From a virus: a stretch of DNA of 45,427 nucleotides. The DNA lies in IMG/VR virus record IMGVR_UViG_3300020141_000100, positions 1 through 45,427 of that record. One strand, 5' to 3'. This document shows positions 18,154 through 29,101 of this stretch, piece after piece. The position numbers were made by a program, and so were the translations under genes. Position 1 is the first letter of the stretch. Every line of letters begins with the position of its first letter. The notes beneath the pieces are model-generated. The model saw nothing but the letters and a program-made list of their open reading frames with translations. It did no database searches and was not told the DNA's origin.

Positions 18154-18558
18154 ATGAAGACCTGCACCGACTGTGGTGTGGTCATTGATGAAAGAACTGA
18201 AGTAAGAAGCGGTCGGGGTGTTAAGTCTCGCTGCCGCACATGTCACAACATCTGGAGACGCACAACACGTGATCCTCAGGTAAGTCGTAATCAGGCGTAC
18301 AGGACTCGCTATGGCATCACTCTTGATGACTACGATGAGATGTATGCTGAGCAAGGTGGCGTGTGTGCTATATGTGGAACTGATACACCAGGAAGTCGCT
18401 TCAAACACTTCCACGTAGATCACGACCACGACACGGGCAAGATGCGTCAGTTGTTATGCGAGGCGTGTAACACTGGGCTCGGTAAATTCCGAGACAATCC
18501 TCTGCTACTTAGATTAGCGGCTTCTTACTTAGAAAAACATGACCGCAGTATTAACTAA
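18154..18558 (+). CDS. HNH / endonuclease VII-like nuclease
   Basis: 134 aa from ATG 18154. An N-terminal zinc site (CTDCG, CRTCHN) is followed by a recombination endonuclease VII-type HNH domain: [45 protein letters not shown], then [20 protein letters not shown]. It overlaps the psbA start by 20 bases. Free-standing homing endonucleases beside psbA are known in cyanophages, where they cut psbA of competing phages. This one could play that part; a junction-resolving role like T4 gp49 is the alternative. Confidence 0.87.
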
Positions 18559-19600
18559 GTCTAACCCATCCACTAACGTATGGAATGACTACTGCGATTG
18601 GATCACTTCAACGAACAATCGCATTTACATCGGATGGTTTGGCCATCTGATGATTCCCGCACTACTTACAGCCGCTACGGCTTTTATCATCGCCTTCATT
18701 GGTGCTCCCCCAGTTGACATTGACGGTATCCGTGAACCAGTTTCAGGCTCCCTCCTCTACGGAAACAACATTATCTCTGCCGCCATCGTTCCCAGTTCGA
18801 ACGCCATTGGGCTACATATGTACCCAGTGTGGGCTGCCGCTTCGCTGGACGAGTGGCTTTATAACGGCGGCATTTACCAGCTCGTCGTCTTCCACTTCCT
18901 TATCGGCATTACCTGTTATGCAGGCAGGGAGTGGGAGCTATCGTACCGACTGGGAATGAGACCCTGGATCTTTGTTGCATTCTCTGCACCAGTTGCCGCT
19001 GCCTTTGCAGTGTTCCTGGTGTATCCGATTGGACAGGGTTCCTTCTCTGATGGGATGCCCCTTGGTATCTCAGGGCAGTTTAACTACATGCTTGTCTTTC
19101 AAGCTGAACACAACATCCTGATGAACCCATTTCATATGCTTGGTGTCGCTGGTGTGTTCGGTGGCTCGCTGTTCAGTGCTATGCACGGTTCGCTTGTTAC
19201 CTCCTCGCTGGTACGTGAGACGACTGAAGAGGTGTCTCAGAACTATGGCTACAAGTTTGGGCAAGAGGAAGAGACATACAACATTGTAGCTGCTCATGGT
19301 TACTTCGGACGTTTGATCTTCCAATATGCATCTTTCAATAATAGCCGTAGCCTTCATTTCTTCCTTGCTGCTTGGCCTGTTGTTGGTATCTGGTTTGCTG
19401 CTCTGGGCGTTTCGACCATGGCTTTCAATCTTAATGGTTTCAACTTTAACCAAAGCTTGGTCAGCTCTGAAGGGAAGGTGATTAACACCTGGGCTGACAT
19501 TCTTAACCGAGCTGGTCTTGGTTTTGAAGTGATGCATGAACGTAATGCTCACAACTTCCCACTTGACCTTGCAGCACACACTGCTCCTATCATTGGTTAA
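18539..19600 (+). CDS. psbA: Photosystem II D1 protein
   Basis: 353 aa, full length and uninterrupted. D1 is the fast-turnover reaction-centre subunit; phage copies replace it while host synthesis falls. Key residues are present, one higher than usual numbering: Tyr162 (YZ), Asp171, Glu190, His191, His199, His333, Glu334, His338, Asp343 and Ala345. Position 131 is Glu (canonical 130), the high-light type. The histidine of the usual LMHPFHM is Asn196. The tail after Ala345 is only eight residues (AHTAPIIG), shorter than the 16 normally removed by CtpA. It sits between the HNH gene and a terminator. Confidence 0.97.
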
Positions 19601-26104: not shown

Positions 26105-29101
26105 ATGGATCAAGTTAATTACAGAGGGTACGCCCGCAGTATAGGTTTCGATCCTATTAAGGCACCAACGGAAGGTCTTGCTCGAATGCAGGAACGCGAC
26201 AACCGTATCATACGTGGTATGGAGGATAACCGTCGGGAAATTAAACAGGTACGAGACGAGTATGGTGCTGGACTTGAACGTAAGTTCGGCATGGAAGCAA
26301 GAGATCGTGAACAGAACTATGCGTGGGAAACCAAGCTTGCTGATACCCGTCAGAAAGCTATTGGTGTAAACGCACAGACCATTATTCAAAGTGAACTGCA
26401 ACGCGGTAAGAATGCAGCATCTACATTTGAAAGCCTGGCTAAATTCAGCACTACTATTTCTAATACTTTAACTGAGTACCAAAAGCAGAAAGATCAACAG
26501 GAAAAGGCAGCTGTTCTTACTGATGTAGCTATCAATGGTCTGCCAATGCAACGGCGGCAGGTACAGGACAACGCTAAAGCTTTGCTATCCCAAGCTGGAG
26601 AAGCTACTGATAAGATTGCTGAAGGAGTGCAGGCCAGGGGAGCTGATCCCTATCTTGTTACCAACCTGCTTACAGGTAACAAAAAGAGAGATATGTGGAA
26701 ACTCGAAGGACTTTCCATGCTTGCAGCGGCTGAGTTCCCTGGATGGGTACAAAGTGAGTTGGATAAGCGTAATTTGGTAACAGCTGAAGAGCGAGAAGCG
26801 TCCTTTAGTACACTGCTTACTGAATTTCTACAGATGAACGGTCTATTTGAAGTAAAGGCTGACTTCATGGTAGAAAGCTTGACGAAAATGAGGGGATCGT
26901 ACAATTCCTTTGTTAACGCTGCTCGCCGCTCGGATATTGTTAACAAGTCCTCCATGATGAGCGAGGATGCTTTTAGTAATATGTCTCGCCTTAAGACCGG
27001 GGAGAGCATTACAGAGGCATTCAGGGTACGTTCACGGAGTTATAGGGAAGATGGTGTAACTCCAGTTGGTAATGCTCAAGCCAAGGCTGAGATCTTCAAG
27101 GAACTTAGTGATACTACTCGCTTTCCTTCAAATGCTGATGTAGATCGTATGCTGGATGAGGCACAGACCGATCAAGGCAGTTGGAAAGTTAGGTTTGCTC
27201 GTGATTACGATGACCTTGTTACCAACCGTAAAAGGGATCAGGAAGCTGAGTTCCAACTGACTGATGCAGCCGAGCGTCGTAAGCTTAAAATTGCAGAGGA
27301 TCAACTGCTTGAGTGGGTTGGTAGTAAGTGGAATGGCGACGAGGAAACCCTCAAGGCTATCATTGATGAAGCTAAGACAAAAGGTATTCCTACTGATCGT
27401 CTCCAAGCCTATCAAGCCAAAAGTAATGAGCAACAGAATGCTGACTTCTGGAACCGTCAATTCAAGGAACAGTACGAACAAGGTACTCTCACTAGTGGTG
27501 AAGTAGATCAACCTGGTGTTCCTATTGAAGTACGTGAGACCTGGCGTCAACGTGCTGTACAACTTGAACAGCAACGCTCTAACTCTGGTATTAGCCAGGA
27601 GAGCATTAAGGGTGAACTCACCGATGCACTTAAGCAGAACCTGATTGGTGACAGTACTAACCGTAGTGCTCACTATAGTCTTCGTGGTGCATCTGATTAT
27701 GCACTCCGTCTCTATAACCAGAAGTTCCAGCAGTACGCTAAGACGATGGAACCTAGCACTGCTGCTGCTAAAGCACGGCTAGATGTCCTCACTGCTATTG
27801 AACAGAAGAAAGGTGCCTTCACTGTTATTGCATCCTCCCAAGCCAAGGTAGGTCAGACACAGGCATTCTACGGTGCATTCACGCCTGGCAAGCATCCTGG
27901 TGCTCCCAGCAACATCGACATCATCAGTACATCTGAAGTACTGAGGAAGGTACGTGCTAACAGCAATGTCATCAACACTGAAGTACTGGCTAGCCCAGCA
28001 CTACTACGGGACATTGATAACCGTATTGCTGCTGGTAAGCCAGTCTCTATCCCTCTTATTTACTCTGATCTGAGTCGAGCTGTACCTAGCATGACTCCTG
28101 TGCAGATCCTTAATGCACAACTTAGGGCAGCAGGTCTTAAGGGACAGATCAAGCCAGGTTTCCGTGAACAACTCAGTCAGATCAATGACCCCTCACTGCG
28201 TCGTATCTTAGATCAACCCCTCACACAGGATCGCCTTAATACTACCATCAACGGTAGTGGTAATGCACCTGCTACTGTACGCCAGGGTAATAACGGCTAC
28301 ACTGATGTGGTGTCGTTGGGCAGTGCATCTGGGTTTAAGTTCCCACAGGTGATGGCTGCTATGTGGGCATTAGAGAGTGGCTGGGGTAAGTATACCTCAG
28401 GTAAGAACAATGTCTTTAACATTAAAGCTCGCCCCGGTCAAGGTACACAAAAGAACGGTTCCTATTGGAGGGACTATGCGTCACCACTTGAGTCTGCTAA
28501 GGACTTCATGAATCTCATGACTGATCCACGGTACGCTCCTGGTATTGCTCAAGCTAAGACTCCACGGCAAGCTATTGAAGCTATTGCTGCTGGTGGCTAT
28601 GCTGGTGGTGAACAGGCTTACCCAAGTAAGATCATCCGTGTTATGCAACAGATGGGTGTGAACGTTGATCAACCATATACTGCTGCTCCCCCTGCACGTA
28701 ACCAAGCATTTATGCGTCCCACTGTTGCCTACGAAATTGGTGGGCAAGGGCCAAAGGGTCCGGATCAGTATGGACCCCATGCTCATGTAAGTATGCCCAA
28801 TCAAAAATACTTTGAGCGTACCGCTCTTGATAATTTTGTCAAGATTATGTTAAACGGGAAACTAGTTCCACTGTCAGCAGGAGCTACTGTTGAAGGTGGT
28901 GAATATGGTGCTTCTAGAGATGGAGGTACACGTAAACATACTGGTGTTGATTTTGCTGCTCCTAAAGGTACAAAACTATACCTCACTAACGGAGCTAGGC
29001 TGATCAGGGTTGAGAAAAAAACAGGATATGGTGATAAACTTACATTCATGGCACCTGATGGCCGCACATTTAGCATTATTCACGGTGAATCCAAATTATG
29101 A
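26105..29101 (+). CDS. Ejection protein with glucosaminidase and M23-like parts
   Basis: 998 aa from ATG 26105, in the place of T7 gp15. Residues 1-600 are mainly helical and charged. Residues about 744-855 form a glucosaminidase-type domain (MWALESGWGKYTSGKNN, with the catalytic-type Glu). The C-terminus resembles an M23 metallopeptidase with parts in swapped order: GPHAH (His892, His894) comes first, then YGASRDGGTRKHTGVDFAAP (His945, Asp949), then GYGDKL and a final His993 six residues from the end. Both activities would cut peptidoglycan during DNA entry. T7 keeps its lytic domain in gp16 instead. The stop overlaps the next ATG. Confidence 0.85.
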   Translation: MDQVNYRGYARSIGFDPIKAPTEGLARMQERDNRIIRGMEDNRREIKQVRDEYGAGLERKFGMEARDREQNYAWETKLADTRQKAIGVNAQTIIQSELQRGKNAASTFESLAKFSTTISNTLTEYQKQKDQQEKAAVLTDVAINGLPMQRRQVQDNAKALLSQAGEATDKIAEGVQARGADPYLVTNLLTGNKKRDMWKLEGLSMLAAAEFPGWVQSELDKRNLVTAEEREASFSTLLTEFLQMNGLFEVKADFMVESLTKMRGSYNSFVNAARRSDIVNKSSMMSEDAFSNMSRLKTGESITEAFRVRSRSYREDGVTPVGNAQAKAEIFKELSDTTRFPSNADVDRMLDEAQTDQGSWKVRFARDYDDLVTNRKRDQEAEFQLTDAAERRKLKIAEDQLLEWVGSKWNGDEETLKAIIDEAKTKGIPTDRLQAYQAKSNEQQNADFWNRQFKEQYEQGTLTSGEVDQPGVPIEVRETWRQRAVQLEQQRSNSGISQESIKGELTDALKQNLIGDSTNRSAHYSLRGASDYALRLYNQKFQQYAKTMEPSTAAAKARLDVLTAIEQKKGAFTVIASSQAKVGQTQAFYGAFTPGKHPGAPSNIDIISTSEVLRKVRANSNVINTEVLASPALLRDIDNRIAAGKPVSIPLIYSDLSRAVPSMTPVQILNAQLRAAGLKGQIKPGFREQLSQINDPSLRRILDQPLTQDRLNTTINGSGNAPATVRQGNNGYTDVVSLGSASGFKFPQVMAAMWALESGWGKYTSGKNNVFNIKARPGQGTQKNGSYWRDYASPLESAKDFMNLMTDPRYAPGIAQAKTPRQAIEAIAAGGYAGGEQAYPSKIIRVMQQMGVNVDQPYTAAPPARNQAFMRPTVAYEIGGQGPKGPDQYGPHAHVSMPNQKYFERTALDNFVKIMLNGKLVPLSAGATVEGGEYGASRDGGTRKHTGVDFAAPKGTKLYLTNGARLIRVEKKTGYGDKLTFMAPDGRTFSIIHGESKL

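Follow-up and report, generated by a model that had tools for sequence, protein, structure and literature searches.

Peptidases of the M23 family represent one of the main wall-peptidase folds. The C-terminus of an internal virion protein encoded in the window, meaning the whole 45,427 nt stretch analyzed here (IMG/VR virus record IMGVR_UViG_3300020141_000100, positions 1 to 45,427), carries the motifs of this family in reversed order, which raises the question of whether the back half of an M23 domain has been moved in front of its front half, as the first-pass annotation had read it.

Motif order in the ejection protein

The window represents a T7-like cyanophage genome that encodes tail tube and tail fibre-like proteins, three internal proteins, and the D1 protein of photosystem II. 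The gene for the latter, psbA, is found at 18539–19600 on the plus strand (phrog_182, E 4e-183) and is a photosynthesis gene carried by the cyanophage. The three internal-protein genes sit between the tail tube and tail fibre genes, which places their products among the T7-like internal (ejection) proteins, and the same arrangement is found in S-CBP1, P60, and DSL-LC07. The second of the three encodes the protein under study, with the following features:

26105–29101, plus strand: open reading frame of 998 amino acids, second of three internal (ejection) protein genes, in the position of T7 gp15 (translation; phrog_24152 over residues 1–991)
28343–28654, plus strand: glucosaminidase domain (PF01832), residues 747–850 (Pfam, E 3.2e-16)
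28706–29098, plus strand: circularly permuted M23-like domain, residues 868–998 (relatives, profile searches, AlphaFold2 model)
28772–28786, plus strand: GPHAH, residues 890–894 (His892/His894), the M23 back-half HxH motif in front position (translation, alignment)
28787–28930, plus strand: linker joining the two M23 pieces, residues 895–942, with ALDNFV conserved in cyanophage kin (alignment of relatives)
28934–29059, plus strand: region matching the Pfam M23 front half, residues 944–985, profile positions 2–43/44 of 96 (Pfam)
28937–28951, plus strand: HTGVD, residues 945–949 (His945/Asp949), the HxxxD zinc-ligand motif (translation, alignment)
29081–29083, plus strand: His993 of IIHGE, the equivalent of LytM His260 (translation, alignment)

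Translation of the open reading frame gives GPHAH, HTGVD, GYGDKL, and IIHGE in that order, followed by the stop codon at 29099–29101, so the coordinates and residues first assigned to these motifs were right, and the Pfam match bears out the adjoining glucosaminidase. In M23 enzymes, zinc is held by H(x)nD and the second histidine of HxH, while the first HxH histidine and a further histidine (LytM His260) are placed for water activation (PMC9662197). The window domain has each of these elements, with HAH at 892–894 as the HxH motif (though in front), HTGVD at 945–949 as H(x)nD, and His993 as the second catalytic histidine. The family order, H(x)nD before HxH, is reversed in the window and in its relatives.

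Scores from the window sequence give a less decided picture. Pfam M23 (PF01551) aligns the front half only, at 14.9–19.4 bits, below the gathering cut-off of 28.7, and the upstream piece alone (residues 851–932) has no Pfam match. The domain reaches 36.0 bits against a canonical M23 front-half profile and 34.2 bits against a profile with exchanged halves, so that, within the window alone, nothing is gained in score from GPHAH; this is weak evidence, and the window sequence by itself would leave the permutation undecided. The upstream piece does score 20.6 bits against a profile of close kin, compared to 6.8 for the best shuffle, beating all shuffles reported by HMMER, and 11.6 bits against a profile of tape-measure-type kin only, compared to 5.4 for the best shuffle reported.

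Relatives and profile evidence for a permutation

Using tblastn and a viral-contig scan, S-CBP1, P60, DSL-LC07, and 67 viral contigs were found as relatives. The sequences long enough to judge keep the swapped order and stop a few residues past LHG. Most relatives show an unequivocal STGPHLD in the upstream piece, where the motif of most close kin is GPTSTGPHLDVKQ, similar to NTGRSTGPHLHYEV, the consensus of canonical M23. It is therefore the relatives that settle the permutation, since the window alone is undecided whereas its kin share the order, the stop point, and the STGPHLD-like upstream motif. A Pfam alignment to the front half, after which the protein stops, is also what could be seen if a normal M23 domain had been truncated by mutation or frameshift in this phage, with GPHAH being coincidental. 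However, relatives stop at the same point with (ST)GPHLD-like motifs upstream, and the next gene starts at 29098, overlapping the stop codon, as is also the case in S-CBP1 and DSL-LC07. We give this explanation almost no weight and reject a truncated normal domain as contradicted by the relatives. The first-pass annotation had named homologues with a normal downstream HxH, lost here, as the observation that would count against it; the relatives contradict that scenario, and none of the 226 open reading frames with the module has a second canonical M23 half outside it. On the latter count tandem remnants are rejected as well.

The module is not confined to cyanophage ejection proteins. Matches of the same tblastn search with E values near 1 led to tape-measure proteins of Acinetobacter siphophages, one of which (1437 residues) carries GTGPHLDVR, then FHKGIDF, then LLHQ in mid-protein. 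The permuted order was also found in Moraxella phage Mcat23 and cyanophage S-EIVl, and normal-order M23 domains in cyanomyoviruses ACG-2014f and S-PM2, Leptolyngbya phage LPP-1, one Vibrio phage, and one Staphylococcus phage. Degenerate DNA patterns were used for wider scans, as alignment-based scans failed for want of conserved stretches, and the pattern for TG[PA]HLDxR added many metagenomic phages. With GPH, HxGxD lies downstream in 89 and upstream in 5 open reading frames of viral contigs, compared to 0 and 104, respectively, in bacterial genomes; with GAH, the viral set has it downstream in 38 and upstream in 0. Since these loci were picked on the back-half motif, independent evidence comes only from where the front half lies and how strong it is. 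The original suggestion of a unique design goes beyond the evidence, given how widespread the module is in tape-measure and ejection proteins.

Open reading frames retrieved with the window-like GPHAHV were mostly unrelated; one of them, L502 (contig IMGVR_UViG_3300037634_001303), was clearly permuted. Apart from that of the window, it is the one permuted domain with a complete set (HAH, HFGVD, and VLHG), and it too lies at the C-terminus of its protein. A group of permuted tape-measure domains (L255, L228, and L417) keep HLD and FLHG and have lost the HxxxD histidine (SGGGAIDIAV-like); L228 has no relative in the phage collection at E 1e-3. In another protein (L448), a lytic-transglycosylase-like stretch (AAKQYGLDPLLFAALIKKE) was seen by eye after the permuted domain, and such pairing with a glycan cutter may be recurrent.

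Both orders were scored with unaltered phage sequences: 30 normal-order M23 sequences gave the canonical profile, and a second one was obtained by exchanging the halves of this profile. The Moraxella, Acinetobacter, and other tape-measure-type domains match the exchanged profile as one domain (best E about 1e-14 to 1e-18, Z=1000) and the normal-order profile as two out-of-order pieces; in L403, for example, profile positions 81–110 come first and 2–90 second. Profile positions overlap slightly there between the two pieces, which we infer to be the expected trace of permutation through tandem duplication. Of 7247 open reading frames scored, 198 viral and 0 bacterial ones preferred the exchanged profile by more than 5 bits, and the normal-order profile was preferred in 151 bacterial and 27 viral ones. 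When the PDB was searched with a profile of 60 permuted phage domains, solved M23 enzymes were matched in two adjoining swapped pieces, as in 3slu_A (profile 64–142 on residues 226–303, then 11–47 on residues 304–338; E 7e-16); ShyA, LytM, and lysostaphin were also matched. PDB entries 9k2v and 9m7n were considered as solved permuted structures and rejected, both being of normal order. Pfam recognizes the module only in part: of the 60 permuted members, 47 match M23 with E values of 0.1 or lower, and the family cut-off was passed in none of ten contigs that carry the module. The core of the first-pass reading, an M23 back half moved before the front half, is thus supported at the profile level and across a diverse family.

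The tree built on both halves groups 50 of the 51 permuted domains, including that of the window, in one clade without canonical members (support 0.88). A tree of the front half only places 45 of 46 in a clade of 47 together with two normal-order phage domains, those of LPP-1 and ACG-2014f (support 0.81). These trees, with modest support and a short alignment, suggest that the permuted M23 domains likely have a single origin. L502 lies outside the permuted clade in both trees and is possibly a separate permutation or a fast-evolving member.

AlphaFold2 predicts the window domain with a mean pLDDT of 84.6 and a pTM of 0.78, and the Moraxella-type domain with a mean pLDDT of 81.5 (core blocks 91–97) and a pTM of 0.77. 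Foldseek searches of the window model in BFVD found P60 (TM 0.73) and a Caudovirales tape-measure protein (TM 0.69); in the PDB, no M23 enzyme was among its 50 best matches. With the Moraxella-type model, the PDB ranks were 1 for ShyA, 3 for Csd3, 8 for LytU, 25 for StM23, and 28 for 2gu1 (62 columns at 3.0 Å), with no M23 match significant at E <0.1. Foldseek follows the chain order in its alignments and can therefore match a permuted domain over no more than one half at a time. These matches lend weak support to an M23 fold in the family but none to the window model.

The two pieces might also be unrelated leftovers of two different M23 domains, GPHAH of a first, broken one and the front half of a second, with no joint domain. 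The lack of any score gained from GPHAH in the window alone fits this explanation, but the motif pair travels together through unrelated proteins, no extra canonical half accompanies it in the 226 open reading frames, residues on both pieces are invariant together, and AlphaFold2 predicts one domain (pTM 0.77–0.78). We regard unrelated leftovers as highly improbable.

Active-site residues and a proposed role at infection

Among 60 aligned permuted domains, with a mean column identity of 31%, the positions of His892, Asp949, and His993 are invariant (60/60). Position 894 is Asp in 58 of them and His in only two, the window and L502, while position 945 is His in 43 and another residue in 17. Both catalytic histidines and one ligand are fixed and the other ligands drift, as 892, 949, and 993 are invariant and 894 and 945 variable. 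Most close cyanophage kin of the window have SHGID, where the histidine is shifted by one residue, and P60 has SFGVD; the window, like L502, carries the full canonical M23 residue set. Permuted domains are not alone in having HxD in place of HxH, as bacterial normal-order M23s found by the same pattern also have it. These include bacterial contigs L283–L402, where GPHLDxR is found in M23 proteins of normal order from Bacteroidales, Pelagibacterales, and others.

It is very probable, in our view, that the ejection-protein C-terminus is a circularly permuted M23/LytM-like metallopeptidase domain, most likely working with the adjoining glucosaminidase, its activity being argued from homology and the invariant residues. 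The GPHxH strand, normally last, would come first, followed by the linker and then the normal front half with HxxxD and the strand bearing the second catalytic histidine, and the chain would end where a canonical M23 enzyme continues to GPHxH. His892, His894, His945, Asp949, and His993 may converge on one zinc site, a part of the first-pass reading that reaches beyond the evidence. The protein would be stored in the head and ejected with its partners at infection, because of its gene position, its family, and what is established for T7-like phages. The glucosaminidase would then cut glycan strands and the permuted domain stem or cross-link peptides, presumably at this stage of infection, opening the peptidoglycan locally for the ejection channel.

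An alternative is that the fold is M23-like and permuted but catalytically dead or without a zinc site, serving as a peptidoglycan-binding, structural, or channel element. Degenerate LytM factors in bacteria are a non-catalytic parallel. The replacement of the second HxH histidine by Asp in 58 of 60 domains, the 17 without the HxxxD histidine, and the SFGVD of P60 all favour such a role, but the window and L502 keep the full canonical set, and both catalytic histidines and the Asp ligand remain invariant at this mean column identity. We see a dead fold as a serious possibility, though not the expected one. We consider it somewhat probable that the window domain is peptidase-active, and activity is less likely in the HLD and SHGID relatives; activity may not be conserved, with the closest cyanophage kin having the HxxxD histidine shifted or lost and HxD for HxH. 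More tentatively, the phage entry peptidases of the permuted clade could all go back to a single old permutation and share a remodelled metal site (HxxxD and HxD, giving H-D-D ligands) with its own metal chemistry, having spread through the tape-measure and ejection proteins of unrelated phages; we think this possible but would not assume it.

Comparison with known systems

The module is a permuted relative of M23 and not a standard member, because the motif order and the Pfam cut-off were tested and neither agrees with the family. For many "hypothetical" ejection and tape-measure proteins, in which Pfam overlooks the module or sees it in part, it points to a likely role of the C-terminal or central region. 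The permuted clade also lets nature show which M23 residues are important. Our search of the open-access literature turned up no description of a permuted M23, and the only mentions of permutation in the jumbo-phage and wall-hydrolase papers concern methylases and NlpC/P60. As a clade, the circularly permuted M23/LytM-like entry proteins of phages are apparently undescribed so far.

Compared to M23 enzymes such as LytM, lysostaphin, ShyA, and NMB0315 (PF01551), both halves of the window domain are homologous and HxxxD, HxH, and the extra catalytic histidine are present, but the halves are swapped, the match is below the Pfam cut-off, and most permuted relatives have HxD rather than HxH. The LPP-1 endopeptidase, the 9k2v internal protein, 9m7n Gp16, and cyanomyovirus S-PM2p208 also have a wall peptidase as part of a large virion protein, in some cases together with a glycan-cutting domain, but with HxxxD before HxH. 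The permuted NlpC/P60 wall peptidases of the YaeF/LRAT type are a precedent for a circularly permuted wall-peptidase fold (PMC6403190), though theirs is a cysteine peptidase fold unrelated to M23. The internal virion proteins of S-CBP1, P60, and DSL-LC07 (phrog_24152) are orthologues that share both the position of the gene and the permuted module at the C-terminus; they differ in having HLD with SHGID or SFGVD where the window has HAH with HTGVD, and the domain is absent from their annotation.
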